This document shows, one piece after another, positions 3,235 through 21,360 of a DNA stretch of 31,970 bases (the stretch's first letter is position 1; every line of letters begins with the position of its first letter). The position numbers and the translations under genes are program-made. The DNA is from a virus. Under the pieces are notes generated by a model. It ran no database searches. It had not been told where the DNA came from and saw nothing but the letters and a program-made list of their open reading frames with translations. Where the stretch lies: the IMG/VR virus record IMGVR_UViG_3300034104_003607, positions 1 through 31,970 of that record; one strand, 5' to 3'.

Positions 3235-3246
3235 GACGCGAAGCGA

Positions 3247-4011: not shown

Positions 4012-4012
4012 A

Positions 4013-4471: not shown

Positions 4472-4482
4472 AGGAGGTGCCC

Positions 4483-4886: not shown

Positions 4887-5007
4887 CCTTGAACTCAAGA
4901 GAAACGAAGTCGAGGGAGCGCTGGCCGAACTCGACCGGCTTCTGGCGAAGGCCGAGGAAGCCTACGAACTGATGGCATGGGCGGAAGAAGATGAAAACGA
5001 CGAGTGA
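4879..5007 (+). CDS. small coiled-coil-like protein
   Basis: 42 residues, predicted to be one amphipathic helix with Leu spacing (LELKRNEVEGALAELDRLL) and a very acidic tail. AGGAG lies about 7 nt before ATG. It overlaps both neighbours by a few codons. The function is unknown. Confidence 0.6.
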   Translation: MTDLELKRNEVEGALAELDRLLAKAEEAYELMAWAEEDENDE

Positions 5008-5538: not shown

Positions 5539-5798
5539 AGGAAGTTATGATCGACTGCCTCGACTCCGGCGTGGTCCCGGTCGAGGCAAAGCGAATCGGA
5601 GAATGGGCCGACCAACTCGGCGACAACGCCAAGATCCTCAACGGGATGCCCATGAAGCATCGCTACGAGGGTCGCTTCGGCGAGATCGACGTTGACGTTC
5701 TGCCGGTGTCGGTGGCGTTTCGCGTTGGCGAACTCCTGCCCGACACCTACGATGAACTGGGGTGGATGATCGACTCTTTTCTGGAGACCCGGCTGTGA
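5526..5798 (+). CDS. hypothetical protein
   Basis: 90 residues with no recognised family and no membrane segment; mixed alpha/beta composition with DVDVLPVSVAFRVGELLPD in the middle. GGAGGG lies about 11 nt upstream of ATG 5526; ATG 5535 is an in-frame alternative. It overlaps the previous gene by 13 nt and the next by a GTGA junction. Confidence 0.65.
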   Translation: MGAMKEVMIDCLDSGVVPVEAKRIGEWADQLGDNAKILNGMPMKHRYEGRFGEIDVDVLPVSVAFRVGELLPDTYDELGWMIDSFLETRL

Positions 5799-6010
5799 GA
5801 AAGAAACTTACGTCTGCGTATGACAGCCAAATCGACGCCGGCTCGGTCGTGCTGACCGGCGAGCAGGCCCGGGCGCTCGTGGTCGCCGTGGCGGACTCGA
5901 TCCGCCACGGCCGCGCCGGGGGCGACGAGATCCTGACGGCCAGGATGCTGGCGGCCGTCGAGGCGCTAAACTATGTATTTCAGATTGGCATTGAGGAGGT
6001 GGACGCATGA
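5795..6010 (+). CDS. hypothetical protein with GTG start
   Basis: 71 residues starting at GTG 5795, which overlaps the previous stop as GTGA; GGAG lies about 9 nt upstream. The centre is helical (EQARALVVAVADSIRHG). No domain was recognised. Confidence 0.65.
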   Translation: MRKKLTSAYDSQIDAGSVVLTGEQARALVVAVADSIRHGRAGGDEILTARMLAAVEALNYVFQIGIEEVDA

Positions 6011-6387
6011 AAGTCGTCGATGCCGACGAGTTGGCCAAGATGCTTGGCGTGTGCCGGAGGACCGTGCTGTCGGCGGCCGGCGGGAACGTCGAGTACCTGG
6101 GCAACAAGGCTTTCATCCGGTCCAAAACTTCGGGAGTACCCGTTCGCGGCAAACACAAGACGCTGCAGCAGGTGGCCGATCAACTCGGTTGCTCGCGGTC
6201 CACGGTTCTGCGTGTGGTCAAGCGGACGGGCCTCGGCATCCAGATCGGCGGCCGTCGCTACATACCGGAGTCGCAGATCGGGCGGATCAAAAAGAGCATC
6301 CTCGCCAGGGGCGTCACGCAGATCCACGGCGACCAAAAAGCCATGAGCGAGCGCGGCCGAATGATGGCTCAGGCCCGATGGGGGTGA
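6007..6387 (+). CDS. double helix-turn-helix DNA-binding protein
   Basis: 126 residues. Two HTH segments are visible: DADELAKMLGVCRRTVLSA near residues 5-23 and QQVADQLGCSRSTVLRVVKR near 55-74, the second followed by an RRYIPESQIGRI wing as in excisionase or MerR-like domains. GAGGAGG is 7 nt upstream and the ATG overlaps the previous stop. It ends the plus-strand cluster and overlaps the opposing HNH gene tail to tail by 19 bp. It could be a regulator of the cluster or a directionality factor. Confidence 0.8.
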   Translation: MKVVDADELAKMLGVCRRTVLSAAGGNVEYLGNKAFIRSKTSGVPVRGKHKTLQQVADQLGCSRSTVLRVVKRTGLGIQIGGRRYIPESQIGRIKKSILARGVTQIHGDQKAMSERGRMMAQARWG

Positions 6388-6671
6388 CCGATCGAGTCCT
6401 CGGCGTGCCGCTTGCTGTGGCAACTGCTGCAGAGAAGTCGCAGGTTGTGGATTGCGTCGGTGCCGAGGGGTTTCTCGATGATATGGTCGACGTGCGCTTG
6501 CTTGCCGGAAACCAAGAACCCGCAGAGTTGGCACTTGCCTTCGTCGCGGGAGATCACGGCGAGCCGCGTTCGTCGCCATGCCGCAGAGCAGTACCCCCGC
6601 TCGGCCGCAGTCGGGCGGGGGGCTTTTGGTCGAGGACGGAAGGCCGGGATTCGTTTAGGCACAGACTTCAT
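6369..6671 (-). CDS. HNH endonuclease
   Basis: 100 residues. CxxC at 47-50, HVDH at 60-63, an Asn near 76 and CSSCH at 81-85 form the canonical zinc-stabilised HNH fold (the CxxC/CxxC subclass). The shorter start (6671) is chosen because the longer frame reads low-complexity sequence through the upstream methyltransferase gene; GGGGG lies just before the ATG. It overlaps that gene by 17 nt. It could be a packaging-associated or free-standing homing nuclease, or a restriction partner of the methyltransferase. Confidence 0.85.
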   Translation of the reverse strand: MKSVPKRIPAFRPRPKAPRPTAAERGYCSAAWRRTRLAVISRDEGKCQLCGFLVSGKQAHVDHIIEKPLGTDAIHNLRLLCSSCHSKRHAEDSIGHPHRA

Positions 6672-7206
6672 TCCCCCAGGCGGCCCAGCCGTCGCGGCGC
6701 CTTCTGGCAAAGAGTTCGATTCGTGATGCGTCCGGGTACAAGCGCTCGATGCGGGCCTGAATCTCGTCGGGCTTTGCACTGTGGGCTCCGAGCGGCGCGA
6801 GGACGACCTGGGCCACAGACTCGTCGGCGATGGACAGCGGTCGCCCTGACTTTTTCATGGAACCGGCTAGAACAAACTCGGTGGTCGGCTTGACGATGCT
6901 GGGCCGAACGCCGCGAGCGCCGAACGGCACGCCGGCCTTGGTTGCCTTCACCCACACGAACGCCACGCCACGGTAATAGCACCCCCACGACGCAAGCGTG
7001 CGGATGGCCAGATCCAGCCGAGGCCCGGTGGCCCAAAGAAACACGACGGACGACGGCTTGAGCAGAGACTTGACATCGAGGGCGAGGATCTCGTCGTCGC
7101 TCATCGTGTCGTAGAACTTGGCGGCAGCGCCCCACTTGTCCTTGGCGCCGTAGTACGACCAAGGCGGGTCGGCCAGCACTACGTCATACTTCTCGCCTGG
7201 AAGCAT
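6655..7206 (-). CDS. MT-A70 family adenine methyltransferase
   Basis: 183 residues. DPPW at 13-16 is the catalytic motif of MT-A70 enzymes, and the C-terminal HSAKPDEIQARIERLYP followed by RIELFARR is the family's other hallmark. Phage members methylate adenine N6 in DNA, usually as solitary anti-restriction enzymes. It overlaps both neighbours and leads into the HNH gene. Confidence 0.92.
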   Translation of the reverse strand: MLPGEKYDVVLADPPWSYYGAKDKWGAAAKFYDTMSDDEILALDVKSLLKPSSVVFLWATGPRLDLAIRTLASWGCYYRGVAFVWVKATKAGVPFGARGVRPSIVKPTTEFVLAGSMKKSGRPLSIADESVAQVVLAPLGAHSAKPDEIQARIERLYPDASRIELFARRRRDGWAAWGNEVCA

Positions 7207-7507
7207 TGCGATGCCACCCCATCATGAGAACTCGATGCGAGTCGCGGGAGAACCACCACTCGACCACGATCTTGGCAATGGCGTTGACAAGCACGCTGAT
7301 GATGAACATTGCCAGCACGCTGCCGTACTCCTTGCGGACCCGTATTCTCATTCGGGCTTTGAGAACGTCCACGAGCATGGCGGGGTCGCAGGTCTCGGGC
7401 CACTCGTCGACGGCCATCTCGATCAGCCGGTCGCGGAGTTTGCCGTGGGCGGCGAGCCTGAATCCGCCGCGCTTGGCGACGTAGGTCTTGAGCGGGGCGT
7501 AGATCAT
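7184..7507 (-). CDS. single-pass membrane protein of unknown function
   Basis: 107 residues, basic N-terminal half, one transmembrane segment VLAMFIISVLVNAIAKIVV near residues 64-82, then a short basic tail. Start overlaps the preceding stop (ATGA). Its position next to a lipoprotein and other exported proteins might suggest an envelope or lysis role, but nothing specific is seen. Confidence 0.75.
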   Translation of the reverse strand: MIYAPLKTYVAKRGGFRLAAHGKLRDRLIEMAVDEWPETCDPAMLVDVLKARMRIRVRKEYGSVLAMFIISVLVNAIAKIVVEWWFSRDSHRVLMMGWHRNASRREV

Positions 7508-7737
7508 CAGTTTTTTCCGGTGCCCTTACAGACGGGGCAGACCACGAACACGCGACCGTCGCCGATTTTTCCGGCGCCGCGGCAATTGTCGCACTGCCCC
7601 GACGGGGCCGGCTCTGGCTTTTGCATCATGCTGTATTGGCCGGCCACGGCGACGATCGGCTGAAGGTCTCGGCGCAACTGGCCGACGCACCCCGCAACGA
7701 GGAAAGCAGCACAGATCAGCGGCAGTGTTTTAGACAT
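7507..7737 (-). CDS. small lipoprotein with DnaJ-type cysteine motifs
   Basis: 76 residues. A lipoprotein signal, hydrophobic stretch with lipobox LVAGC, would leave Cys17 as the lipidated residue. The C-terminal part contains CDNCRGAG and CPVCKGTG, two CxxCxGxG motifs as in the DnaJ zinc-binding domain. A lipid-anchored zinc mini-domain is unusual. Phage lysis accessory (Rz1-like) is possible given the membrane gene beside it, but Rz1 proteins are proline-rich and lack these motifs. Confidence 0.8.
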   Translation of the reverse strand: MSKTLPLICAAFLVAGCVGQLRRDLQPIVAVAGQYSMMQKPEPAPSGQCDNCRGAGKIGDGRVFVVCPVCKGTGKN

Positions 7738-8731
7738 ACCCCATCGCCCCGTAAGTAGTGTGCTGACGGCGAGGCCAGCCGGCCACGCTGGACAAGGCGA
7801 TGCACTGTGCCTTGTCGATAGTCGAAGCCAGCGCCCAGAACGAGCCCGGCGGAATGTCGATTGGCGTGCCGCGAACCCTTCGAGGCCCGGAGTTCCACGC
7901 CGCCCAGGTGTTGTTCCAGAGAACTAGCGCCTGGCCGTACTTCTGGTGCGTCTCGGGCCGGTCGTCGTATCCGATAAAACTCTGCGCATGGTGCCAAATG
8001 CCGGTCTGGCGAGAGAATCCGTCCTCGTTGCGCGTCCTCTCGAACGCCATCGAACTACAGTTGAAGATCCCGTAGCCCTGAAACAGAAAGTCGCGAACTT
8101 GGTCGCGGCCGCTCAGAATCGTGGATGTCCTGGCGACATACTTCGATGACTCGTCGAGCCACTTCTGGCCGGGAGCCCGGGAACCACCGAGCGAGATGGT
8201 CTTTTCGGTGTATTGCGTCAGATCAATGCCGAGTTCGGGATAGGGCTTCCTGACCAAAAAGCCCTTCGCCGTCGCAACATGGGCGGCGCGAGAGCAGATC
8301 CAGCCGTCGGAGTCGTACCCTCTCCACGCCCAAAGAGACTCCGACGCAATCACGGAGTCTCGAACGCCACGCTCCGAAATCTGCGGCGCGCATTCGAGTT
8401 TTCCAGTGACTTCGTCGGGGACGTTGCTCGCAATCTCCATCCCGAGCGAGGTAAGCAGGCAGTTGGCGGCCGCACGGGCGACGCAGTCGCCCGTCAACTG
8501 GGTCGGCCCAGGCCAGCACCCTGGAAAGACGCCCTGCACCGTCGGGAACAGCAGAATCAGTTTGCCTTTTCCGGCGTCCGCAAACTCCCAACTGTGGGCC
8601 ACGCTGCCGCCGTCGGGGTTGCCGCCGTGCCGAATAATCGAGTCGACCAACTCCTCGTCGGCGCGAGGGTCGCGCCGGCAGCCCATCAGGCCACGCGAGT
8701 AGGCGGCGGCTGGGTCGAACAAATCACTCAT
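7730..8731 (-). CDS. papain-like (C1-type) cysteine peptidase
   Basis: 333 residues. The papain triad and oxyanion Gln can be traced: Q78 and C83 in TQLTGDCVARAAA, H248 in WHHAQSFIGYDD (compare HAV..VGYG) and N274 in LWNNTWAAWN (compare NSWG..WG). No signal peptide is visible. Phage genomes of planctomycete and marine origin sometimes carry such proteins among virion genes; possible roles are virion processing or host-peptide cleavage. The start at 8731 overlaps the preceding gene by 8 nt; an in-frame longer start lies within that gene. Confidence 0.75.
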   Translation of the reverse strand: MSDLFDPAAAYSRGLMGCRRDPRADEELVDSIIRHGGNPDGGSVAHSWEFADAGKGKLILLFPTVQGVFPGCWPGPTQLTGDCVARAAANCLLTSLGMEIASNVPDEVTGKLECAPQISERGVRDSVIASESLWAWRGYDSDGWICSRAAHVATAKGFLVRKPYPELGIDLTQYTEKTISLGGSRAPGQKWLDESSKYVARTSTILSGRDQVRDFLFQGYGIFNCSSMAFERTRNEDGFSRQTGIWHHAQSFIGYDDRPETHQKYGQALVLWNNTWAAWNSGPRRVRGTPIDIPPGSFWALASTIDKAQCIALSSVAGWPRRQHTTYGAMGYV

Positions 8732-9203
8732 CGCCGTGGATGTCCATGACCCATGCCAGTGCGCCGCACGCGGCAACGAGCCGCTCCTGGCCCTGGGCGT
8801 CCAGTGCTTTTTGGTCCGGGCCGAGCGCGGCCATGAACGTGCGGTCGATAGCCTCGGCGAGCCCGGGATACTTCCCTACGCTCTCCTTGTCGATCGCCAG
8901 CCGCAGTGAGCCGGAGTGAAACGTGATGAAGTCGTCCGTCGTGGCGACGATCGGCTTTTCCCGCCCGAAGTCACGCAGCAGGATGAACGCCATGGCTTCG
9001 TAGAAACTCGACAGGTACAGGCGGTCCTTGGGCAGCATCCTGGCTGCAACCGGCGACACGGGCTTCGCCCAATCGAGATATTCCTGGCCCGGCCGTGGCG
9101 TCGAGACGCTGGACTCCTCGGGCGGCCACGACAGATCGAGCGTCACGCCTTTCCACGAGAAGAACAGCAGGATCACCACGAGCGCATACCTCGCGTATTT
9201 CAT
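8724..9203 (-). CDS. exported or membrane-anchored protein
   Basis: 159 residues. MKYARYALVVILLFFSW is a signal peptide or N-terminal anchor without a clear cleavage site; the rest is a soluble, mainly helical domain of unknown family. GGGAG is about 6 nt upstream. Start overlaps the previous stop (ATGA). Confidence 0.7.
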   Translation of the reverse strand: MKYARYALVVILLFFSWKGVTLDLSWPPEESSVSTPRPGQEYLDWAKPVSPVAARMLPKDRLYLSSFYEAMAFILLRDFGREKPIVATTDDFITFHSGSLRLAIDKESVGKYPGLAEAIDRTFMAALGPDQKALDAQGQERLVAACGALAWVMDIHGDE

Positions 9204-9472
9204 TGGTCGCTCCCATCAACCAGTGCGAGCGTCAGAACGTCGATGGCCTTCTTCTGGTCGTCGCCCAGGCACTCGGTCCTGAGAAGCCGCAGGCGGACGG
9301 CCGCCAGATTGGCGATTGCCGTCTGGTAGTTCGGCGCAACCGCCACTGAAAGCGGCTTCGGCGCCGGCACGTTTTTGTCGTCCGACATGGCCCACGCCAG
9401 CATCTTGCTGGCCTCTGGCCAGACAGCGACCGCGACGGCTGCCACCCCACAGGCGACCTGAAATACGCTCAT
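9200..9472 (-). CDS. small membrane protein
   Basis: 90 residues with an N-terminal transmembrane helix (VFQVACGVAAVAVAVW) and a charged helical tail. ATG 9472 overlaps the previous stop; a longer in-frame ORF from 9496 is not needed. No family recognised; part of a run of envelope-directed small genes. Confidence 0.65.
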   Translation of the reverse strand: MSVFQVACGVAAVAVAVWPEASKMLAWAMSDDKNVPAPKPLSVAVAPNYQTAIANLAAVRLRLLRTECLGDDQKKAIDVLTLALVDGSDQ

Positions 9473-9747
9473 CACAGCACCTTCCCGGCCGCCCACTCGA
9501 AGAAGGCCTTGCCCTCTGGCGAGCGGAGGACCGCCTCAAGATGGAACAGAGCCTCGTCGTCGACCTCTGTGCTGGACTTCCCGGCCGCCCACTGGACCGC
9601 CGACACGATGGCAAGCGCCTGGGCGTGCGGAGTCGGAGCCGAGGTAATCGCCTGCAGGCGGCCGAGCATCGGCGCCCACTCGGCGAGCAACTTGAGTTTC
9701 TCGAAAATCGGAAGATTCGCGCCATAGATATCAACCGGCTCGTCCAT
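9472..9747 (-). CDS. hypothetical helical protein
   Basis: 91 residues, rich in Ala and Leu, soluble, with two similar WAAGK endings (residues near 53-57 and 85-89) hinting at an internal helical repeat. It overlaps the preceding gene by 17 nt and the following one in ATGA. Function unknown. Confidence 0.65.
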   Translation of the reverse strand: MDEPVDIYGANLPIFEKLKLLAEWAPMLGRLQAITSAPTPHAQALAIVSAVQWAAGKSSTEVDDEALFHLEAVLRSPEGKAFFEWAAGKVL

Positions 9748-9922
9748 CTTTCTTGGCCTCCTTGCCCTTGTTGAGAAACTTGATGTATGCCGCAGACAGC
9801 GTCCTTGCCGTGCTGGTCAACTTGCCCCAATGACTCGGCGGCGCCTCGGGGACGAGCGACACAAGCGGTGTCGAGTCGTCGCCATACCGGGCCGCCGTGT
9901 AATCAAATCGTTCACCGCTCAT
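9731..9922 (-). CDS. small hypothetical protein
   Basis: 63 residues with a basic C-terminus (KFLNKGKEAKKDGRAG). No domain was recognised. It overlaps its neighbours on both sides, in keeping with a polycistronic minus-strand transcript. Confidence 0.6.
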   Translation of the reverse strand: MSGERFDYTAARYGDDSTPLVSLVPEAPPSHWGKLTSTARTLSAAYIKFLNKGKEAKKDGRAG

Positions 9923-10103
9923 GCGTTGCGTACTGGAGGACTTGGTAGGCGTCCTGAAAAACGCACCGCGCGATCTCCTCGACCTCCGCTTTCGTCGGCC
10001 GGCGATCCAACTTCCACGCCTCGGACTCAGTCTCCCTGTCGTCCAATTTCAGGACGAGAGTCGCCTCTTTGCCCGCGAGTATCAGTCGTACCTCGGCCGT
10101 CAT
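9912..10103 (-). CDS. small hypothetical protein
   Basis: 63 residues starting MTAEVRLILAGKEATLVLKL, with a beta-strand-like N-terminus and a helical end. GGAG is about 10 nt upstream. The gene overlaps the preceding CDS by 77 nt in another frame, more than usual here, so one of the two may be shorter than drawn. Confidence 0.55.
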   Translation of the reverse strand: MTAEVRLILAGKEATLVLKLDDRETESEAWKLDRRPTKAEVEEIARCVFQDAYQVLQYATHER

Positions 10104-10434
10104 TCATGTGTGGCTCCGTAGCATTATTCATTCTACAGAATGCGCCCGCGCCGAGCCGGGACTCGCGGTCTGCCTCCGACCATCCGGCGCGGATCTCGGC
10201 GGCGGCCACCCGGATCTGCTCAGGAGACGGGATAAACACGTTCGGCTCCACTCGCTCGCGTAGCCCCAGCGAAGCCGCGTAGGCCAGAAGTTCGTGCGCC
10301 GACATCTCCATCTCGTCGCAGACCTCGTCGAAGGACAAGTCGCTGTACGACCAGAGTTTTCTCAGTTTTCGCTTCTTGTTCGCGCTGACTTTATTCGCGC
10401 GAATCTCTTCTTCAGTCCTGCGCGGCGACGCCAT
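10027..10434 (-). CDS. HTH-like small protein with EIRxGW C-terminal motif
   Basis: 135 residues. A helix-turn-helix-like segment (SFDEVCDEMEMSAHELLAYAASLGLR) is followed by SPEQIRVAAAEIRAGWSEAD, which matches in layout TPAEIEAKCAEIRSRWTPQE of the gene at 12202-12528. The last 40 residues look low in structure and overlap the next gene, so a frameshift near the end is possible. ATG 10434 overlaps the preceding glycosyltransferase gene. It is likely a phage regulator of a family with several copies per genome. Confidence 0.6.
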   Translation of the reverse strand: MASPRRTEEEIRANKVSANKKRKLRKLWSYSDLSFDEVCDEMEMSAHELLAYAASLGLRERVEPNVFIPSPEQIRVAAAEIRAGWSEADRESRLGAGAFCRMNNATEPHMNDGRGTTDTRGQRGDSRPEIGRQGD

Positions 10435-11287
10435 GCGGTATGACGGCTGCATATCGGCAGCCGGGATTGAGGTACATCTGATATCCGGCCTGCCGCATGG
10501 TTTTGTGCAGGGCAACGTGTTCGCAGTCGCCGCCGACGTATTCGACCCCGTCCGCGAAAAAAGCCTGAGACCGGTAGACCGCCAGCCCGCCGAATGCGGA
10601 GTTTATCGGAATCGGCTCGCTGCCGACCGGCGGCAGGAGTTCGTGAAACCAGCCGTGTTGCCGGCGGTCCTCCCACCAGTTCAGACGCGCGGCCCAGGCG
10701 TCGTACTGCATGACCCTAATGGCGCCCTCTTGCTCGGCGTGCGTGGAGGCCCAGAGCGAAACACTCGCCATGCCGCCCGGCCGAAGCGATCGGCACTGCT
10801 CGGTGCCGTAGGCGTCAAGCCAGCCGATGCTGTTCAGGACGCCTTCCGGCGAGAACCCGCCCGTGGGATCCATGTCGATCACGACCACGAAGTCGCAGTC
10901 AGGGGCGTTTTGAACAGCCCAGCGGCGGCACCGGTTTCGGTACTCCGCCAGGGCGATCGTTCTGTCCTCCTCGAACCCCCGATAATCCGGCCTGTGCAGC
11001 GTGGCGTGTTCGTGGGTAGCCCACGGCCGGGACTCGGCGAACGAGGTGAGCATCTGGGTGGTGCCGTCGGTCGAGTCGTTTTCGTAGACGTAGAGCGACG
11101 CACTCTTGAAGAACCCGGCCGTCTCTTCGAGGAGAACCAGCGTGTTTTCGAGAAACGGCATGGCGTCCCTGGCGATGGCCAGGAAGCACACCGACGACCT
11201 CGCGGCTGACTCTCGCCCAATGGCGACGTATTTGTCGTACTGCTCTTGATACGGCGGCTCGATTCGCCAGAAATCTTCAGGCTTCAT
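10412..11287 (-). CDS. glycosyltransferase (GT-A fold, GT2-like)
   Basis: 291 residues. A Rossmann-like N-terminal half with ENDSTDGT at 69-76 and a metal-binding DxD motif, DMD at 138-140 in VVVIDMDP, mark a nucleotide-sugar glycosyltransferase. The next gene upstream encodes an FkbM-type methyltransferase, a common companion in glycan modification. In a phage these could decorate virion proteins or DNA, or alter the host surface. The start at 11287 is preferred; the longer ORF reads through the neighbouring gene. Confidence 0.8.
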   Translation of the reverse strand: MKPEDFWRIEPPYQEQYDKYVAIGRESAARSSVCFLAIARDAMPFLENTLVLLEETAGFFKSASLYVYENDSTDGTTQMLTSFAESRPWATHEHATLHRPDYRGFEEDRTIALAEYRNRCRRWAVQNAPDCDFVVVIDMDPTGGFSPEGVLNSIGWLDAYGTEQCRSLRPGGMASVSLWASTHAEQEGAIRVMQYDAWAARLNWWEDRRQHGWFHELLPPVGSEPIPINSAFGGLAVYRSQAFFADGVEYVGGDCEHVALHKTMRQAGYQMYLNPGCRYAAVIPHGVAAQD

Positions 11288-11888
11288 TGAGGAATATCCA
11301 GAAGTGGTTCGGGTGGGCGCCTGGGTACGGGTGCGGAATGGCCATAAACTTCTCGTGGCCGAGCCGTTGAATCGCGTGGCTGACATCTCGCCTGTTGTCA
11401 TGCACCTCGATCAGCCACCGCGTCCCCCTGAACTTCTCCGGCGTCGCGCCGTTCAGAACCAGATGCTCTGCGCCCTCAACGTCGATTTTCACAAAATCGA
11501 CGACACCGCCAGCGCAGGCGTCGCGGACGTAGTCTAGGGTTACTGCGGGGACACTCTCGACATCTATGACAGATGTTTTTTCTTGCCCACCGCCGCCAAT
11601 AGGGTGTGTCGGCAGGATCGACGATTGGTCAGGCTTGTCCCGGAGGTAAAAGTCCCTCTGACCGAAGGCGTCGGCGCACGCAAACTCGTGGAGCGTGGCG
11701 TTCCTGGGGATATGACGCCGGATTCGCTCTGCAGCCCGGCGGTCGGGCTCGACGGCAACGACGCTGTCGAAATACTGCGACAGCCAGTGCGTCCATTCGC
11801 CCTTGTTGGCCCCGATATCCAGGGCTACACGACGATGGCCTCGAAGAAAAAACTCGGCGTAATCCTGCAGCAAAAAGACTTCTTCCAT
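11277..11888 (-). CDS. FkbM family methyltransferase
   Basis: 203 residues. SAM-binding motif I LDIGANKGEW at 23-32, VEPD in the next strand and FVKIDVEGAEHLVL later are the FkbM pattern. FkbM enzymes methylate hydroxyl groups of sugars and small molecules. Its ATG lies one base past the preceding TAG and GAGGTG is upstream. It pairs with the glycosyltransferase, overlapping it by 11 nt. Confidence 0.9.
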   Translation of the reverse strand: MEEVFLLQDYAEFFLRGHRRVALDIGANKGEWTHWLSQYFDSVVAVEPDRRAAERIRRHIPRNATLHEFACADAFGQRDFYLRDKPDQSSILPTHPIGGGGQEKTSVIDVESVPAVTLDYVRDACAGGVVDFVKIDVEGAEHLVLNGATPEKFRGTRWLIEVHDNRRDVSHAIQRLGHEKFMAIPHPYPGAHPNHFWIFLNEA

Positions 11889-11889
11889 G

Positions 11890-12168
11890 CTACACGCACC
11901 TCTGCAGAAAAGTCCTGGCGTCCTTGGCCGAATAGACGACTGCGCACGGGCACCCAGCGGCAGCCAGTTCGGCCATTCGTTTTTCCTGAATCTTGCTGGG
12001 GGAGTTCCCAGGCACTTTGGCCTCCATCCAGACCGCGCGGCCGCCCTTGATGGCAAGAACGTCGGGAAGCCCGGCCATCTGGTAGGCGCTGCCGTGAATC
12101 TTGACAGCGAACCAACCCAGAGACCGTGCCTCTGCGACGACTTTCGTGACGATCGTTCGCTCCAGCAT
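11890..12168 (-). CDS. VRR-NUC domain nuclease
   Basis: 92 residues. GLPDVLAIKGGRAVWMEAK contains the D...E-x-K catalytic core of the PD-(D/E)XK VRR-NUC family, with a downstream conserved SKIQEKRMAEL helix. Phage members are single-domain nucleases of replication or recombination modules with DNA structure preference. It starts 33 nt after the previous stop, the longest break in this stretch. Confidence 0.9.
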   Translation of the reverse strand: MLERTIVTKVVAEARSLGWFAVKIHGSAYQMAGLPDVLAIKGGRAVWMEAKVPGNSPSKIQEKRMAELAAAGCPCAVVYSAKDARTFLQRCV

Positions 12169-12201
12169 GGAGCGTTAGTGTGGCAACCTGTAGCCTACCG
12201 G

Positions 12202-12528
12202 TCAAGCCCGAAATGACATCGTCTCGCGATCGAACGACGAGTAGGACGGGGGGCGCCACTGCTTCCTGCCGCCCCCGACAAGCCGCTGCGCCTCCTCCTG
12301 CGGAGTCCATCGGCTCCGGATCTCGGCGCACTTGGCCTCGATCTCCGCAGGCGTCGGGTCGTCGTCCACAGAAGCGCGACTCACGAAGCGCTTCGGGAGC
12401 CCGTAGCGGTCCTTGAGCGAATACATGAGTGTTCGTCTGATACCGAGCGCCTTGCAGAGCATCTGATTGCTCATGTCGGTGTGCCAGAGTTCAAACAAAC
12501 GCTTGACATCGACCTTCTGCCCACTCAT
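12202..12528 (-). CDS. HTH-like small protein with EIRxRW C-terminal motif
   Basis: 108 residues. VKRLFELWHTDMSNQMLCKALGI reads as a helix-turn-helix, then TPAEIEAKCAEIRSRWTPQE matches the C-terminal motif of the 10027-10434 protein, making them likely paralogues. GGAGG is 7 nt upstream. Its stop overlaps a TTGACCGGTAGG sequence that could be a promoter for the VRR-NUC gene. Confidence 0.75.
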   Translation of the reverse strand: MSGQKVDVKRLFELWHTDMSNQMLCKALGIRRTLMYSLKDRYGLPKRFVSRASVDDDPTPAEIEAKCAEIRSRWTPQEEAQRLVGGGRKQWRPPSYSSFDRETMSFRA

Positions 12529-12848
12529 TGTCCGGCCTCCTTGCAAATAGCCTTGTGCCCCTCGATCGCCTGCTTGACGCTTGAATATCTCTCGCAGATG
12601 TCGCACCCCGGAAACGTCATCGTCTCCCAGAGCAGCGGCGGCCCGCCGTCGTAGGCGTGGTTCAGCCCCAGAAAGACGGTCGAGACCCTGATGCCGTTCT
12701 CCAGAACGTCGCTGGCGATGCTGAACCCGCAGCCTGTTTTGCTTGCGTACCAACTGGACGACTCCGGCATGGCGGCGTGCCACTCGAAGTATTCGAGGAC
12801 TCCGCACGGGCGTGTCGAGCCGCTCTCGTCGACCGTGTACCAGTTCAT
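12525..12848 (-). CDS. conserved phage hypothetical protein
   Basis: 107 residues. The segment VSTVFLGLNHAYDGGPPLLW followed by ETMTF resembles small phage proteins widely annotated as hypothetical. FPGCDICERY contributes two cysteines. Start and stop both sit in ATGA overlaps with neighbours, fixing the start at 12848. Confidence 0.75.
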   Translation of the reverse strand: MNWYTVDESGSTRPCGVLEYFEWHAAMPESSSWYASKTGCGFSIASDVLENGIRVSTVFLGLNHAYDGGPPLLWETMTFPGCDICERYSSVKQAIEGHKAICKEAGQ

Positions 12849-13300
12849 TGCGCGGCCTCTGCTGGCTTTTGGCATGGGCAGTCGGGATGGTGCATCCCCC
12901 ACTTGTCGCCGACGACGAACCAGTGGCCGCTGTGCTTCACGGTGCAGAGCGTCCACGACTCCGGCGGCTCGCTGTCCTCGGCGACCGACGGCACGGTCAT
13001 GTGGTCGGCGTTCTTGCGGGCGGCCAGGATCGCCGGCACGAGCAGGCCGACGAGCGTTGCGATGATCGCCAGGACGGTGAGAACCTCGACGAGCGTGAAG
13101 GCTCGTCTCTTTTGATACGCATTGAGCGCATCGCAGACGTAGTGCGCGTCGCTTTCGTCGATGCACTCGCAAACGGGCTCGTATTTTCCGTCATAATGCT
13201 TGCCGTGGATCATCACGGGGCGTGTCGTATCGACGACGGTTGCCGAAAAACAGCAATGGTTTGTCTGCGACTCGTCGACCACCATGTATCGCTGTGTCAT
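12845..13300 (-). CDS. fusion of a phage protein with an internal prepilin-type motif
   Basis: 151 residues in one uninterrupted frame. The first 60 residues (VVDESQTNHCCFSATVVD, then CECIDESDAHYVCDALNA) resemble small soluble phage proteins. Directly after KRRA comes FTLVEVLTVLAIIATLVGLL (68-87): a type IV prepilin N-methylation and cleavage motif with Glu at +5, followed by VPAILAARKNA, like the FTLVELLVVIAIIG...LLPAVQAARE signature of Planctomycetota DUF1559-type proteins. A leader of 67 residues is far longer than normal, and position -1 is Ala rather than Gly. The C-terminus (HPDCPCQKP) is soluble. The start overlaps the previous stop (ATGA). Confidence 0.8.
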   Translation of the reverse strand: MTQRYMVVDESQTNHCCFSATVVDTTRPVMIHGKHYDGKYEPVCECIDESDAHYVCDALNAYQKRRAFTLVEVLTVLAIIATLVGLLVPAILAARKNADHMTVPSVAEDSEPPESWTLCTVKHSGHWFVVGDKWGMHHPDCPCQKPAEAAQ

Positions 13301-13554
13301 TTCCGGCCATCTCCCTCAAGTTCCTCATCGAACAGTGCGTCGGCGAACTCCTGGGCGGCATCGCTCAAGTGTTCGTAACGCTCCCTCAGTGAAGTTTGCA
13401 GCCACCTCGTCCTTGAGTTGCATTTCTCCTGCAACCGCTCGATCTCCTTCGCCGCCTCCTCGATCCACGACTCCAGCACGAACTCATAGGTGCCGATATC
13501 TTCTGTTCGGTGCTTGAGGAGATCGCGAAGGACTTGGAGCAGCGGTTTCTTCAT
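13297..13554 (-). CDS. small helical / coiled-coil protein
   Basis: 85 residues, charged and helical (WIEEAAKEIERLQEKCN), of a type common in phage accessory regions. No catalytic motif. Weak upstream ribosome site. It is the first gene after a structured non-coding gap at 13555-13736. Confidence 0.65.
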   Translation of the reverse strand: MKKPLLQVLRDLLKHRTEDIGTYEFVLESWIEEAAKEIERLQEKCNSRTRWLQTSLRERYEHLSDAAQEFADALFDEELEGDGRK

Positions 13555-13576
13555 CTATCTCATTTCCTTGATTTCT

Positions 13577-13652
13577 GCGACACGTTGAATCGTCGTGTCG
13601 CCGGGGGCGACAGGCTGCTATGCAGCACTCGGTAACGCCGTGCTTCGCGTTA
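13577..13652. other. cluster of three hairpins in a non-coding gap
   Basis: Three perfect inverted repeats follow each other: GCGACAC/GTGTCGC (13577-13601, 11-nt loop), GCTGC/GCAGC (13614-13626, 3-nt loop) and TAACGC/GCGTTA (13633-13652, 8-nt loop). The gap runs from 13555 to 13736. The last hairpin ends in GCGTTAGGC, which contains GTTAGGC, a match to the GTTRRRY core of integron attC sites, but a full attC is not convincing. Confidence 0.6.
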
Positions 13653-13709
13653 GGCGGCCGGGCGGCGCGGAATCGGCGGGGTGTTATGCGGAACGGGGGG
13701 CGGCTATCG

Positions 13710-13743
13710 AGAACCGCATACTCACTGGTTCTGTGGCTACTTG
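13710..13743. repeat. intergenic hairpin repeat, shortened copy
   Basis: AGAACCGCATACTCACTGGTTCT followed by GTGGCTACTTG; keeps the outer AGAACC/GGTTCT arms and right flank of the repeat family at 13962-14565 but has lost the central stem. It covers the stop of the gene at 13737-13940. Confidence 0.7.
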
Positions 13744-13940
13744 TCGCCAGTCAGCATCTGCCACGCTTCGTAGCACCCGCTTCCCACCGGAGAGCCTTGC
13801 AGCAGGTACGCGGCGTTTTGAATCAACACCCGCAGCCGCGTGACCTCGTCTTCCAAGTCTTCGTTCTCGGATCGCATCCGCCGCTCCTCTGGCGTGCAGT
13901 CGCAGTTCATCGGCTTCTTGTCGCATATCGGGCAAGTCAT
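13737..13940 (-). CDS. small zinc-ribbon / coiled-coil protein
   Basis: 67 residues. CPIC near 3-6 and CDC near 13-15 form a small cysteine cluster, followed by a coiled coil (RRMRSENEDLEDEVTRLRVL). AAAGGAG lies 9 nt upstream. The gene is bounded on both sides by hairpin-repeat copies, its stop lying inside one. Confidence 0.75.
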   Translation of the reverse strand: MTCPICDKKPMNCDCTPEERRMRSENEDLEDEVTRLRVLIQNAAYLLQGSPVGSGCYEAWQMLTGDK

Positions 13941-13961
13941 GTCGTTTCTCCTTTACGCCCC

Positions 13962-14018
13962 AGAACCACGCGATGCAGCGGACTGCGCCGCTGATCGCTG
14001 GCGTTCTGTGGCTACTTG
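13962..14018. repeat. intergenic hairpin repeat, full copy
   Basis: Begins AGAACCACGCGATGCAGCGG and ends GTTCTGTGGCTACTTG. Nested inverted arms AGAAC/GTTCT, GCGAT/ATCGC and CAGCGG/CCGCTG give an extended hairpin. It covers the TAG stop of the DUF551 gene at 14012. Confidence 0.85.
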
Positions 14019-14275
14019 CTCGCTCTCGGCGTCGGCGGGAGCGGCATCCAATGGGTCGGCTCAGTCGGCCCCAGCAACTGCTCGTCGTCGCACACCCACA
14101 TCCCGTTCGCCTGCCGGTCTGCGCACGTTGTTTCATCTGGCTCCAGCAGCGGACAGAAGATCAAAACGTGATCGCCAACGTCGGGCAGCGACTCGTCTAT
14201 CGGAATCCACCGCCGCTCCCACTCAGCCATTGTCGGTTCCAGTTCTTCGATGATTCGTCGTTTCAGCCAGCCCAT
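14012..14275 (-). CDS. DUF551-domain protein, copy 1
   Basis: 87 residues. WIPIDESLPDVGDHVLIF ... THWMPLPPTP is the start and end signature of DUF551, a small domain frequent in phages with unknown biochemical role. ATG 14275 has GGAG six nt upstream; an internal ATG at 14230 has an almost duplicated leader (CCGACAATGG). A second DUF551 gene lies at 14572-14844. Its stop is in a hairpin repeat. Confidence 0.85.
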   Translation of the reverse strand: MGWLKRRIIEELEPTMAEWERRWIPIDESLPDVGDHVLIFCPLLEPDETTCADRQANGMWVCDDEQLLGPTEPTHWMPLPPTPRASK

Positions 14276-14299
14276 TGTCGGCTCCGATTCTACGCTCAC

Positions 14300-14343
14300 A
14301 GAACCACGCGATGCTGCGGACGAGCCGCAGATCGCATCGTTCT
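14300..14343. repeat. intergenic hairpin repeat, full stem copy
   Basis: AGAACCACGCGATGCTGCGG...CCGCAGATCGCATCGTTCT with nested arms CTGCGG/CCGCAG, GCGAT/ATCGC and AGAAC/GTTCT. The right-hand GTGGCTACTTG flank is missing. It begins at the stop of the 14343-14498 gene. Confidence 0.85.
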
Positions 14344-14498
14344 CAATCACAACAGTGCAGTCGAACGAAAGCCTCGGCCAGTGCCAGCCAAGCCCACTTG
14401 CGGAACTGAACAATGATTCGACCGTCAACAACGACAGTCCACCCGCGCCGGCGGTCGCATCCGTAGTCCCTGTCGTAGTGGAGGGCGAATGATTTCAT
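14343..14498 (-). CDS. small hypothetical protein in a hairpin module
   Basis: 51 residues, MKSFALHYDRDYGCDRRRGW at the start and a Trp/Ala-rich C-terminal helix. Ribosome site is weak. Support comes from its fit between two hairpin copies, the downstream copy starting at its stop codon. No family recognised. Confidence 0.5.
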   Translation of the reverse strand: MKSFALHYDRDYGCDRRRGWTVVVDGRIIVQFRKWAWLALAEAFVRLHCCD

Positions 14499-14511
14499 GC
14501 CTGATCCGTTG

Positions 14512-14565
14512 AGAACCACGCGATGCTGCGGACAAGCCGCAGATCGCACCGTTCTGTGGCTACTT
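14512..14565. repeat. intergenic hairpin repeat, full copy
   Basis: Nearly identical to the 13962 copy: nested arms AGAAC/GTTCT, GCGAT/ATCGC, CTGCGG/CCGCAG with loop ACAAG, then GTGGCTACTTG. It follows the second DUF551 gene. Confidence 0.85.
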
Positions 14566-14571
14566 GATGCC

Positions 14572-14844
14572 CTACGGCCCATCTGGGATCGGCATCCAAT
14601 GTGTTGGTTTCATGGTCGTTTCGATGTACCAGCGTTCGCCCAAGTCGGCGTCGCATTCGTGGCACTCGTCGCCCGGATCGCACTTGTAGTAGCGACCGAG
14701 GAAGTACGAGTTCCCAGCGGCGACCGCGACAATATGGCTGAACCCATCCCAGCGGCGCTCTGGGAAGCGATCCGTCACGGGTATCCAGGCGTTCGCCCCA
14801 GAACCAAGCGATGCAACGGACGGCCCTGCTACGTCATGCGTCAT
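14572..14844 (-). CDS. DUF551-domain protein, copy 2
   Basis: 90 residues. WIPVTDRFPERRWD ... PTHWMPIPDGP gives the DUF551 frame; between them CDPGDECHEC could bind metal. GGAGG is 8 nt before ATG 14844. It overlaps the upstream gene by 11 nt and is followed by a hairpin repeat. Sequence divergence from copy 1 argues for separate acquisition rather than recent duplication. Confidence 0.85.
   Translation of the reverse strand: MTHDVAGPSVASLGSGANAWIPVTDRFPERRWDGFSHIVAVAAGNSYFLGRYYKCDPGDECHECDADLGERWYIETTMKPTHWMPIPDGP
14800..14825. repeat. intergenic hairpin repeat, degenerate copy
   Basis: AGAACCAAGCGATGCAACGGAC matches the left arm of the repeat family; the right arm is not clear. It lies just after the stop of the 14834-15196 gene but now inside the coding sequence of DUF551 copy 2. 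Confidence 0.5.
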
Positions 14845-15196
14845 GGTGAGTCCTCCGGTGGCCGTCGTCCATTTTCCACGGCACGCCTGCCTCGCCCATC
14901 GCTGCTTTGACTTGGGCTGAACAGAAAAACCAGCCCGACGCAAAGTCTGGTCGCAGCATCGCCGGGTTCGCTGGAGGCTTCGGAAGCACAACGACAATCG
15001 CGGGTTTTGTTGTCTGGCCGATACGATCATCGTCGCTGGGCCTTCCTGCGGCAGGACGAGGCTGGTCGGCCTCCTGTCGCGCCGCGTCCCCACGCAGCCG
15101 CTCGATCTCGCCTGCGGCCTCGTCAAACAACTCGCCGAGCCTCGCAATGTGCAGGCCGCGCCAGCCGCGAAGTCGCGCCACAATGTCGTCACTCAT
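14834..15196 (-). CDS. phage protein with N-terminal helical motif (MSDDIVARLR type)
   Basis: 120 residues. The N-terminal MSDDIVARLRGW and FDEAAGEIERLRGDA helix are typical of small phage proteins of unknown function; a proline-rich linker leads to VPWKMDDGHR. ATG 15196 is chosen over upstream starts that overlap the preceding gene. No catalytic motif seen. Confidence 0.7.
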   Translation of the reverse strand: MSDDIVARLRGWRGLHIARLGELFDEAAGEIERLRGDAARQEADQPRPAAGRPSDDDRIGQTTKPAIVVVLPKPPANPAMLRPDFASGWFFCSAQVKAAMGEAGVPWKMDDGHRRTHHDA

Positions 15197-18222: not shown

Positions 18223-18686
18223 GGCTCACTCCTGTGTGTCGCCGGGTAGCCTATCGACGAAATCCATTTCTGGCAAGCCTCCCGGACGGCGTCGCTCTTG
18301 TGCTTGGAGGCACACCAGCGGATATACGCCTCTCCGTTCTCTGTTCTGGATGCCTGTGCAAGTGTCATGCCAGAGCAGATGCCCTCGAAAAAAACGAAGT
18401 CGTCGCTTGGCGCAAGAACGCCCTCGACCGCAGGAACGTGCTGCTGCCAGCCGCAGAACGCGCAGGCGATCAGCCACTGGCTCCGGTAGTCGTCGAGAAT
18501 GTCAAAATAGGTAGCCTGACACTTTGGATTGTGGCAGGTGAAGTGCCCGTCTGACTGCCCGAGAATCGTCTCTGGCTCGTAGAAAACAGGCTGCGCCGGC
18601 GCCGGTGGTGGCTCCTGCTTTTTTGCGCGACGGTGCTTCTTGGACTTCTCTGGCTCCTCCGGCGAGATGTCGAACAGCAGGCTCAT
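18210..18686 (-). CDS. zinc-ribbon-containing phage protein
   Basis: 158 residues. An N-terminal basic and proline-rich linker (KSKKHRRAKKQEPPPAPAQP) is followed by CHNPKC and CAFCGW about 30 residues apart, a split zinc ribbon. Translationally coupled to the helicase gene (ATGA) and overlapping csrA by 13 nt, it is likely part of the replication module. Function unknown. Confidence 0.7.
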   Translation of the reverse strand: MSLLFDISPEEPEKSKKHRRAKKQEPPPAPAQPVFYEPETILGQSDGHFTCHNPKCQATYFDILDDYRSQWLIACAFCGWQQHVPAVEGVLAPSDDFVFFEGICSGMTLAQASRTENGEAYIRWCASKHKSDAVREACQKWISSIGYPATHRSEPCSS

Positions 18687-21223
18687 ATCCGCACCCCCAT
18701 CCTGAAGTCGACCGGGTCGTCGGAGATAATCAGTTCTCGCCTCGCCCTCGTCACGCCGACGTACTCGACGCGACGCTCCTCGTCGTGCTGCGCCCTGTCG
18801 GACGACCGAGCCTCGTGGATCTTGCGGGTCAGGGTCGTCGACAGGACGACAACGTCGGCCTCCATGCCTTTCGCCGAGTGGACGCTCCCGAGGCGAATCT
18901 GTGGCCGTGCGGCCAAATCGGCGCCCCACTTCAGGGCCGCCGCCCGAAACTTCTCGCCGCCGTCGACCAGATCGGCCCAGGTTCCACCAAGCACCCTGTC
19001 CACCATGGCCTGCGTCATGCCGGTGTCGCCGAGCGCCGACGGAAAGACAGCGTCCCAGCGGCGCTGCGTCTCCTCGCGGCGCCAGTTGGTCTTGGTGCCC
19101 CGCTCCAGCAGCGGGCCGTCCTTTCCTCGCGACGGAATCTCCTCGATGGCGCAGGCGAAGTCTTCGCCAGAAACAGCCTCGCCGTGTTCGAGATCCCAGA
19201 GCGCCCGGATCCCACGAAGGACCGCCGTGTCACTCTTTGCCTTGAGTTTCGCGAACGGCAGCCGCTTCTTGCGAAGCACTGCGGCCCACTCGTCCAGCAT
19301 GAAGTTGCATCGGGCGAGGATCAGCGTGGGCTTCGTCGGATCGAGGCCGGGCACCACGCTGTCGGCACCCTGGCCGCGAGAAATCCTGCCGTCGTGGTCG
19401 GCCGGGGACACCTCCCTGTCGAAGTACCCCTCGTGCATTTGCCGCAGGCACTTCTCGCCGAGCGACAAGATCGGCGCGGGGCACCGGTATGACTTCGGCA
19501 TGATCCGCTTCTTGTCGGCAGGCCACGACATGAAGTGCTTGGAGTCAGAGCCGCAGAATCCGTAGATCGAGTTCCCGGTGACATAGCCGTTTTCGACGAC
19601 GTAGGTGTGGTATTTCTCGACTTCGAGGCTGTAGACCCTCGCCGTACTTCCAGGGGCGAGCCTGCGAATCGACTTGACGGCGACCCACTCGCAGTGCGAC
19701 CCGACCGTCCTGCTGCCTCGCGGCCCAGTTCCTCGCTTCTTCCTCTCCAGAACGCCGTCGATGAGCCGTGGCGCCAAGTGAATACCGGGCAACACATTGA
19801 CAGCCTGAAGAAACCGGCCGGCGCGGCAGCCGTTCTTGCTCCTGTCTGCTTTTTGACAGAACGGAAACAGGATGTCTCGGTCGTGGTCGTCGAGGCATCG
19901 GCGACCGGAATCAGTCATGTCGCCCATTGCGGAGAACACGCCGTCGATGAACTCTCGGCTCAGGTTCGTCTTCCCGTGCGGCGGCCGAAACGTCACCTGC
20001 GGGATGCCGTACCGGCACGACACGATCTGCTCGTGCATTCTGGCATCGCGGTCGGTGTCGAACACTTTGAGAACCCAGACAGAGTCAGCGTCTTCTTGAT
20101 TCATTCGCATCTTGAGCCTGAACTCGCCGTTCTTCTCGGATCGCTTTTTCGAGAACATCTGCACCGTACCTACCCGCCACCGGTTGCCTTTTCGCATCAG
20201 GTAGGTCGCGTATGCCTCGCGCTTTTTCGTTCGGACGTACCACTTGTGGTTCGTCGTACAGACTGACTTGGTGCCGTCCTCGAACGTGACCTCGATCAAG
20301 TCTCGCGAATCAACATCTCGCCACGCCTTTCTGAACGGGATCTGCTTGCTCGTTCCGTAGAACCTACCCTCGTTCTTCGAGAACGCGATCAGTTTGTCGG
20401 TCCTGGGGTCGAGATCCTCGATCGGCTTGTAGCCAGACGCGGTCAGGACGGGTGTCCCTTCAAGGGAGCATTGAAAGGGATCTCCCGCGACGTAAACCCA
20501 CGCCACCTCCGGCCCGTTGGCGAGCCGGCGGCAGACCTTGTCCACCAAGGCCGAGGCATCCTGTGCCTCGTCGAAGATCCACGCCCTCACGCCGGCCGGC
20601 AGTTCGCCTTCCGGGTCAGTGAAGTAGAAGCCGTCGGCCTCGAAGTGGATGCCGGCGTACCGGGCAAGCAGGTCCGTAAAGTCAGACCTGTTCTCCAGAC
20701 GCTTGGCCTGCTCGTAACGGTCAACCAACTGCTTGCAACGGGCGAACGGCGGCACCTCTCGGCCGGCGCGCACCATCCTCTCAACCGTTTTCTTGAGCGG
20801 CTCAATACGCGCCCGGCTGACATCCCAGCATTCCAGTGCTGCGGCCGCCGTCTTGTCTCCAGCATATCTGACCCGGCCGTCGTCCTCGTCCAGTAGCGTC
20901 CGGATGTCGACCTTCAGGGCTCCGGCAAGCCAAATCTGGCTCTCCTTCTTGTCGTCGATCATCTGGCCCTTCACGATCCCCAACTGCTTGTGGCAGATGC
21001 CGTGGGCCGTCTTGAACCAGCCGTCTCGGGACAGAACCTCCACCGGAACGCCCCAGGCGAGGCTCGCCCGCTCGACGGCCTCCTGCCGGGCGGCCTTCGT
21101 CATGCTTGCGAAACCGACAGCAAACGGGCTGCCGCCGAGGGCCGACTTGGCCCCCTCCATGACCCGGAGAAGTTCCGTAGTCTTCCCAGACCCCGCAGAT
21201 CCAATGAGCATTGCTGTTTTCAT
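18683..21223 (-). CDS. UvrD/Rep-like superfamily 1 DNA helicase interrupted by an intein
   Basis: 846 residues as translated; about 546 after splicing. Walker A GSAGSGKT at 8-15, Walker B WIFDEAQD at 215-222, motif III split as AGDPFQ|SIYGFCGS by the intein, RCPAPI soon after the junction, and near the C-terminus VHSAKGMEADVV and EERRVEYVGVTRARREL (motifs V and VI). It unwinds DNA 3'-5' during phage replication or repair. ATG 21223 is chosen for the usual short distance to Walker A; a GTG at 21313 would add 30 residues with CPVC but lacks a ribosome site. Separated from the primase gene by a 137-bp AT-rich region. Confidence 0.93.
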   Translation of the reverse strand: MKTAMLIGSAGSGKTTELLRVMEGAKSALGGSPFAVGFASMTKAARQEAVERASLAWGVPVEVLSRDGWFKTAHGICHKQLGIVKGQMIDDKKESQIWLAGALKVDIRTLLDEDDGRVRYAGDKTAAAALECWDVSRARIEPLKKTVERMVRAGREVPPFARCKQLVDRYEQAKRLENRSDFTDLLARYAGIHFEADGFYFTDPEGELPAGVRAWIFDEAQDASALVDKVCRRLANGPEVAWVYVAGDPFQCSLEGTPVLTASGYKPIEDLDPRTDKLIAFSKNEGRFYGTSKQIPFRKAWRDVDSRDLIEVTFEDGTKSVCTTNHKWYVRTKKREAYATYLMRKGNRWRVGTVQMFSKKRSEKNGEFRLKMRMNQEDADSVWVLKVFDTDRDARMHEQIVSCRYGIPQVTFRPPHGKTNLSREFIDGVFSAMGDMTDSGRRCLDDHDRDILFPFCQKADRSKNGCRAGRFLQAVNVLPGIHLAPRLIDGVLERKKRGTGPRGSRTVGSHCEWVAVKSIRRLAPGSTARVYSLEVEKYHTYVVENGYVTGNSIYGFCGSDSKHFMSWPADKKRIMPKSYRCPAPILSLGEKCLRQMHEGYFDREVSPADHDGRISRGQGADSVVPGLDPTKPTLILARCNFMLDEWAAVLRKKRLPFAKLKAKSDTAVLRGIRALWDLEHGEAVSGEDFACAIEEIPSRGKDGPLLERGTKTNWRREETQRRWDAVFPSALGDTGMTQAMVDRVLGGTWADLVDGGEKFRAAALKWGADLAARPQIRLGSVHSAKGMEADVVVLSTTLTRKIHEARSSDRAQHDEERRVEYVGVTRARRELIISDDPVDFRMGVRI
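19571..20470 (-). other. intein in the helicase motif III
   Basis: 300 residues (252-551 of the precursor). Block A begins CSLEGTPVLTASGYKPIEDL, block B has TTNHKWYV, block F is VYSLEVEKYHTYVV and block G ends YVTGN followed by Ser as the +1 nucleophile. The penultimate residue is Gly where His is usual. No LAGLIDADG motifs are seen; the middle (DARMHEQIVSCRYGIPQ) looks like a non-endonuclease insert or a degraded homing domain. The insertion splits Gln-Ser in the conserved GDPxQSI motif, a known hot spot for helicase inteins. Confidence 0.93.
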
Positions 21224-21360
21224 GACCACAAAACCAAAAACCGTTTTATTCCCAGGATTTGTGGTACGTCGTAAACCCTTGCAAACAGGGCACTTACGAC
21301 GCGAAAACCACAAAACCAGAAAACCAACGCAAAATGAGGATGCGAAACGTCGTTTTTTTT
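21224..21360. promoter_or_regulatory. AT-rich intergenic region with hairpin and direct repeats
   Basis: Between primase stop and helicase start lies the least GC-rich stretch of the window. ACCACAAAACCA occurs at 21225-21236 and 21307-21318, flanking a hairpin with 8-bp arms CGTCGTAA (21267-21274) and TTACGACG (21294-21301) plus an inner CCCT/AGGG pairing. Eight consecutive T on the plus strand end the region. This could hold the helicase promoter/operator or a replication origin; the sequence does not decide. Confidence 0.55.

Follow-up and report, generated by a model that had tools for sequence, protein, structure and literature searches.

Introduction

Integrons have mostly been studied as bacterial devices, and copies in phages are reported to be infrequent. 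The available text of Qi et al. 2023 (PMC9892861) describes integrons and CALINs in phages, with 17 CALINs in phage genomes, gives GTTRRRY as the consensus of the 7-nt attC core, and reports that IntI1 recombined five of the six phage sites tested. Planctomycete integrons are named in the accessible parts of PMC8618304, PMC2426708 and PMC3108266; those of PMC8352920 include an attC model for Planctomycetes. In the text available from PMC8946536, the attC site is an imperfect palindrome with an unpaired central spacer, extrahelical bases and a variable terminal structure, and the choice of the bottom strand fixes the orientation of cassettes for expression from Pc.

We analyzed a stretch of 31,970 bases, hereafter the window, which is an IMG/VR virus record with phage genes. 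It is highly probable that one region of it is an integrase-less integron cassette cluster (CALIN) with attC sites of a planctomycete family, carried by a phage most likely of Planctomycetota and presumably moved by the IntI of the host.

Hairpins and gene units of the window

The window encodes phage-type genes, namely a virion structural protein, a primase-polymerase, SNF2 and UvrD helicases, and a dNMP kinase. The UvrD-like helicase (18683-21313, - strand) contains a probable intein, with a Pfam Intein_splicing match under its cut-off (E 9e-5) and an NCBIfam intein C-terminal region above its own. Tandem repeats with periods of 17, 39 and 17 bp occupy positions 1-145 (at the contig end), 2753-2888 and 3183-3237, and an ORF near the array (12845-13300, - strand) has an internal prepilin-type N-methylation motif.

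Three nested palindromes are found on the + strand, at 13958-14011, 14296-14347 and 14508-14559, with the common sequence AACCACGCGATGC[A/T]GCGGAC...CCGC[T/A]GATCGC...GTT. The pattern of the 5' arm occurs four times in the window, for 0.01 expected in shuffled sequence, which rules out chance palindromes. When folded as single strands, the three hairpins have z-scores of -2.8 to -4.3 on both strands. A previous sequence-only reading had described nested hairpins here, at 13962, 14300 and 14512, each directly following the stop codon of a minus-strand ORF; both descriptions hold, and the hairpins are near-perfect. Our model R2, whose training set contains these three copies, scores them at 72, 72 and 63 bits.

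The array is made of four units. The gene of cassette A (13737-13940, - strand) is an ORF of 67 aa with no Pfam match that is missing at this place in the related contig L095. Its attC site (13958-14011, + or top strand) is of the short class (see below), scores 71.9 bits with R2 and 60.7 bits with model R1, has its AAC box at 13964-13966 and its GTT box at 14003-14005, and folds with z-scores of -3.2 and -4.3. Cassette B (14012-14275, - strand) encodes a DUF551 protein of 87 aa (PF04448, E 2e-9), and its short-class attC (14296-14347, + strand; GTT at 14339-14341; R2 72.3 bits) is the place of an extra cassette in another relative, L310. Cassette C (14343-14498, - strand) has a gene of 51 aa from the ATG at 14498, with no Pfam match, a short-class attC at 14508-14559 (+ strand; R2 62.7 bits; z-scores of -2.8 and -3.4), and unit ends GTTCTCAA and TTGAGAAC that match each other. 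Cassette D (14572-14853, - strand) encodes a second DUF551 protein (93 aa; PF04448, E 3e-5). The genes had been described as unrelated, which does not apply to B and D.

The start codon of cassette D lies inside its own attC, a decayed site of the long class matched by the long-loop model R1 at 14796-14881 (+ strand; 19.7 bits, E 2e-4). Its 5' arm is intact and its 3' arm degenerate. The degenerate copy noted earlier at 14800 is thus recovered by R1, but by itself it has no convincing fold (z about +1). The score is barely above that of an unrelated R1 match in the window at 10436-10508 (- strand; 16.8 bits, E 2e-3), which, together with its counterpart in L310, we took as noise. The 69 nt from 14800 onward are 98.6% identical in contig L041.

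The left edge of the array (13640-13736) carries GTTAGGC- and GTTATGC-like boxes, GCGTTAGGC, TGTTATGCGG and CCGCATA. Regarding the shortened copy that had been noted at 13710, the outer AGAACC/GGTTCT arms are kept, but the hairpin is not significant (z -0.9; R2 12.5 bits, E 0.08). The edge as a whole has no significant match to R1 or R2, and could represent a former attC or a site resembling attI.

Three strong attC sites and a decayed one thus lie within 0.93 kb without intI, and a CALIN is defined by at least two clustered attC sites and no intI. The sequence-only reading had suggested looking for an IntI-type integrase nearby. None was found in the window: the one tyrosine recombinase detected (26748-27614) is Xer-like and has no match to the IntI model. 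That the ends are non-canonical, as also noticed earlier, is correct, since the R' cores of the window (GTTCTGT and GTTCTCA) deviate from GTTRRRY. Cores of planctomycete host arrays, such as GTTCTGC and GTTCGGC, deviate too; hence, strict agreement with GTTRRRY is not a discriminating criterion for this lineage.

A family of viral hairpins in two size classes

The 5'-arm pattern was searched in the viral_contigs collection, where it retrieved at least 120 stretches. A hairpin regular expression with a check of the inner stem was passed by 73 of the 120 viral loci listed. The other 47 were left out of the counts, as were four copies of the window (L001-L004) and duplicate segments. The contigs compared are metagenomic and mostly partial. 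The hairpins fall in two classes, of about 41 nt (40-43) and about 81 nt. The alignment of 45 long sites has 18 pairs, with 99.1% of the cells paired, while shifted registers are only 22-50% paired. The changes in paired cells are two-sided in 77 cases and one-sided in none. This lack of one-sided (G-U-type) intermediates is consistent with a hairpin formed by DNA. G18 and A25, both unpaired, lie on one arm, the inner box is GCGAT/ATCGC, and loops are short or long. Hence, the inner L box, the unpaired spacer, the extrahelical bases on one arm and the variable loop of attC sites are all present. The outer AAC and GTT boxes are invariant in the viral alignments A1 and A2, where sites had been preselected by a pattern and a regular expression containing them, and in 150 of 150 aligned host sites, which were selected by the model. 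Site polarity is uniform in the 25 loci with at least two sites. Two IMG/VR contigs carry one identical long attC with identical listed flanks (L017 10526-10605 and L063 7731-7810).

The hairpins lie between the stop and start codons of co-oriented genes, and many long loops contain an ATG, often with a Shine-Dalgarno-like motif, features that would suit transcription terminators, mRNA-processing elements or translation-control elements without any role in recombination. This explanation is very improbable. The coding strand shows no T run after the three window hairpins and the Rfam scan of the window returned 0 gathering matches, so that terminators were rejected. Covariation is two-sided without G-U-type changes, as expected for DNA, and the sites are exchange points belonging to the attC family, as detailed below. 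An additional role of the hairpins in expression is possible.

Outside viral contigs, the 5'-arm pattern matched at least 120 stretches of the genome_contigs collection; among those listed, 4 passed a loose hairpin regular expression, and only one, from a Rubripirellula MAG (L140), was judged real. At the level of the phylum, an exact pattern occurs in 17 of 294 genomes, where by eye only G051 looks real. In the phages collection (50,697 records), only 36-base matches were found, in 3 records. The covariance model is far more sensitive. R1 was trained on 45 hairpins, 44 viral ones and that of the Rubripirellula MAG, and its outer pair is one column off, with the loss of one of its three pairs.

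The same sites in planctomycete integrons

R1 matches 44 of 60 Pirellulaceae genomes versus 1 of 18 genomes outside Planctomycetota, which bears out the link to planctomycetes made in the sequence-only reading. The exception, the Oceanobacter mangrovi genome (G410, L320), has a single match of 41 bits. In 11 host stretches, R1 found 181 sites (E up to 0.05), of which the best 150 were aligned (A3) and used for the host tests of cassette ends and orientation. One example is an array in genome G358 at about 230-318 kb. An IntI over the family cut-off was found in 30 of the 60 Pirellulaceae genomes and in 0 of 14 controls. In five genomes (G358, G374, G382, G389 and G598), the distance between this IntI gene and an R1 site is about 1-5 kb, with the gene on the opposite strand; three others (G353, G360, G371) have arrays and no IntI match at E 1e-40. 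A model that is almost wholly viral thus finds planctomycete arrays, in five genomes beside an IntI gene. Hence, the hairpins are attC sites, and the earlier proposal of cassettes with attC-like sites is supported. Since IntI is on the opposite strand beside the sites, the + strand of the model is the canonical top strand of attC.

In the 60 Pirellulaceae genomes, all R2 matches at E 1e-6 among the 22 listed span at least 90 nt, so these genomes gave no sites of the short class. In a set of 248 genomes of the class, G586, G598 and G610 have the highest attC scores, and IntI over the cut-off is present in G586 and G598.

For comparison, none of the 50 viral records searched, of the 73 hairpin loci, encodes an IntI over the TIGR02249 cut-off (there are two weak partial matches). 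We therefore rejected a phage-borne IntI, and complete integrons, with intI and attI next to the array, were not found in these records, nor in the window, whose recombinase is not IntI. IntI-like proteins occur in eight loci of other viral contigs, and no R1 site was found in the five of these loci tested. Tyrosine recombinases over the Pfam cut-off are present in 13 of 27 viral records tested, including the window, and the phages' own Xer-like enzyme could in principle shuffle the cassettes. We regard this as improbable, given the lack of IntI-like proteins over the cut-off in the 50 records, the window protein's lack of a match to the IntI model, the 12 of 27 records without a tyrosine recombinase match (though records may be fragments), and the host arrays with the same sites, which adjoin IntI.

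Cellular contigs can turn up in virus collections, and planctomycete arrays look similar to those described here, as would be the case if our contigs were bacterial integron fragments misclassified as viral. We find this very improbable. The window has the virion protein, primase-polymerase and helicases mentioned above; large ORFs of the hairpin loci (set A7, 100 of the 102 listed) match terminase, portal, major head and head protease families; and inverted genes and short attC sites set the phage arrays apart from most host arrays.

Cassette boundaries, gain and loss

In integrons, the R' half-site departs with the next cassette. Hence, a match of R'' is expected at the opposite end of the same unit, and not with its hairpin partner. 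Among phage units shorter than 450 bp, 20 of 21 have ends that are complementary over at least 4 nt, as do 70 of 77 host units shorter than 700 bp; these limits were fixed after a first look at the matches. The same complementarity occurs in 13-14% of cases within hairpins, and in 20% (phage) and 11% (host) of shuffles. Without a length limit, ends match in 24 of the 41 units from phages and in 82 of the 130 from hosts (17% and 10% in shuffles), a weaker signal that probably comes from sites missed in long gaps. In the phage arrays with fuller mapping, leaving out the three weakest of 41 rows (window 14796-14881, window 10436-10508 and L310 10739-10811), 25 of 32 units pass the 4-nt rule, 4 have 3 nt and 3 have none.

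We then compared 35 junction pairs between loci, which are not independent and in which L038, L072, L075 and L090 were replaced by fuller copies of the same contigs. The left unit alone is shared in 23, the right alone in 7, and both in 5. The hairpin size class is the same in 23 of 23 left-only pairs versus 4 of 7 right-only ones. Furthermore, 24 of 34 left-extending BLAST alignments stop within 3 bases past GTT. These breakpoints indicate that the hairpin travels with the left unit (in + orientation) and that exchange takes place at GTT. Each unit ends at G^TT and can be written [TT... reverse-strand gene ...AAC-hairpin-G]^TT; as in cassettes, R'' is complementary to R' at the unit's own other end. 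The sequence-only reading had paired each hairpin with the gene whose stop it follows, and this has to be revised, since the breakpoints assign it to the gene whose start it adjoins.

Single units are gained and lost at the hairpins, in line with the comparison of gene order between relatives that had been proposed. The contig L310 (3300042453_003615) aligns with window positions 42-14345 at 91-97% identity. At the GTT of attC-B, it has one additional cassette of 292 bp that brings an attC of its own (R1 60.5 bits), and it then rejoins the window at 14338 with 100% identity over the 127 bases to the contig end. Conversely, L095 lacks cassette A and has, directly after the partly conserved array edge, a DUF551-type cassette related to B. 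The attC-B sites of the window and L310 differ in one compensated pair and in the spacer, which shows that conversion or mutation alters hairpins as well. L310 also has about 330 bp (3693-4026) that are absent from the window at 3730, a place without any attC match.

A cassette shared with a host chromosome

Contig C23 of genome G586 carries an array in which two short phage-type attC sites precede host cassettes in forward orientation. The unit at 423-732 of this array and a unit of the phage contig G016 share 93.9% identity over 310 bp, and the gene is reversed in both. On the right, the homology stops at GTT, and on the left only the conserved attC aligns. The ends of the host copy match over 6 nt, a match broken in the phage copy by a substitution beside GTT, so that this copy is among the units failing the 4-nt rule above. 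Three of the nine scanned ORFs of C23 match Pfam, all of cellular types (FGGY kinase, T2SSE, trypsin/thioredoxin). Judging from the sequences, the partial identity and the exact ends argue against a chimeric assembly. When the phage loci were compared by BLASTN with the first 11 host stretches, no alignment exceeded 110 bp.

These data bear on whether units are instead swapped between phages by homologous recombination at the 40-80-nt hairpins, which would be relics of integrons with no IntI on the phages now. The hairpins are indeed very similar across phages, attC-B differs between the window and L310 despite the conserved gene, and RecE-like recombination families match 4 of the 100 large ORFs of the hairpin loci. 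Still, we consider this explanation unlikely, even if it deserves to be taken seriously. The size class follows one side of the junction, which is not expected if exchange were symmetric within the hairpin; host cassettes surround a phage cassette whose right homology ends at GTT; and the complementary ends of the cassettes imply a circular attC intermediate at some point.

Inverted genes and start codons in attC sites

Since each hairpin travels with the gene that starts beside it, the orientation of phage genes is opposite to that of attC. The classical layout, with the gene along the top strand of attC and the attC after its stop, is thus not that of the phages. The longest ORF, a noisy measure of orientation, is forward in 109 and reversed in 21 host units (85:8 when one orientation is at least 1.3 times longer), compared with 8 forward and 33 reversed in phages (1:24). 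The stretches of G586, G598 and G610 have 28 forward and 5 reversed units. By the same measure, 10 of 32 units are reversed in host G374 (L306-L307), above the other large host arrays, and some in-loop frames of this array are near-identical between sites. There are 20 Pfam family matches among 105 reversed phage ORFs (16 DUF551, 3 Dam, 1 DUF7448) and none among 90 forward ones. One of the ORF sets (A5) has some overlapping or near-duplicate entries. PHROGs adds DNA methyltransferases and a Mom-like DNA-modification protein. Large flanking ORFs have the direction of the cassette genes in 59 cases and not in 39, which is a weak tendency.

Because the gene is inverted, its attC forms the 5' leader. 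Of 48 long phage sites, 33 have an in-loop ATG that begins an ORF of 45 codons or more reading through R'', and 23 of these 33 have a Shine-Dalgarno-like motif. Typical in-loop N-termini are MTDEVDEMSAASRGS and MTMNKPTDALAGPLHRVV; at least three of the 33 frames, with the N-terminus M.CPLHRVV, are probably wrong. No such ORF was found in 60 short sites. Among 132 host sites, 19 have in-loop ATG frames, 2 of them with a Shine-Dalgarno-like motif, and most look spurious. Hence, many long phage attC sites would also provide their gene with its start codon and about 13-18 initial codons. A gene antiparallel to its attC would face away from the Pc promoter after integration at attI.

Discussion and comparison with known systems

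The membership of the hairpins in the attC family, the boundaries of the cassettes, the insertion and loss of single cassettes, and the presence of one cassette in both a phage and a host array are direct results of our computations. They leave the sequence-only reading partly confirmed in what it observed and supported, with two corrections, in its interpretation as integron cassettes.

As for the mechanism, we infer that a host IntI most likely acts in trans on the bottom strands of phage attC sites. While a phage infects the cell or persists as a lysogen, the host IntI would fold and cut the bottom strand of its attC sites in single-stranded form, and cassettes could thereby move between phages, and into and out of host arrays. 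We also put forward a broader scenario, in which our confidence is evenly divided. Planctomycete phages would keep their own pool of gene-inverted, ready-to-translate cassettes, where attC serves as recombination site, as ribosome-binding leader and as coding sequence of a shared N-terminal peptide. Host IntI would provide an exchange service in trans, and accessory genes would be parked silent in host integrons, facing away from Pc, until recaptured by a phage.

Cassettes bounded by attC sites recur in many phage contigs and encode small accessory proteins (DUF551, DNA methyltransferases, Mom-like). With one of them common to a host array, virus and host appear to trade genes through the integron system, and gene flow from phages to integrons becomes directly testable. 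Inverted genes with a start codon in attC would represent a distinct expression logic, in which one sequence is selected both as a DNA hairpin and as a coding sequence.

Phage genomes with attC clusters and no IntI, as here, are also described in the available text of PMC9892861. The word planctomycete is absent from its main text, and its phages have cassettes in the same direction in two cases and attC sites of divergent direction in one; the text available mentions neither an inverted-gene lineage, nor start codons in attC, nor a cassette shared with a host array. Among the matches listed, judged by title and beginning of the abstract, none deals with cassettes of planctomycete phages or with start codons inside attC sites, in a library without most subscription journals and without bioRxiv preprints.

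In structure, the phage hairpins match the classical attC, as set out in the accessible part of PMC8946536, in the palindrome, the spacer, the extrahelical bases and the terminal structure. They differ from it in the R' cores of the window, which are not GTTRRRY, and in the gene being antiparallel to attC, and such inverted genes would defeat the orientation of cassettes for Pc expression. The chromosomal integrons of Planctomycetota share the attC family, the arrays adjacent to IntI and the rule of cassette ends. Yet, host genes are mostly forward with attC sites of about 80 nt, whereas those of the phage arrays are mostly reversed, with many attC sites of 40-43 nt. Clusters of attC sites in phages and integrons in planctomycetes were already known, and the gene-inverted cassettes with translated attC sites look like a new form of these.
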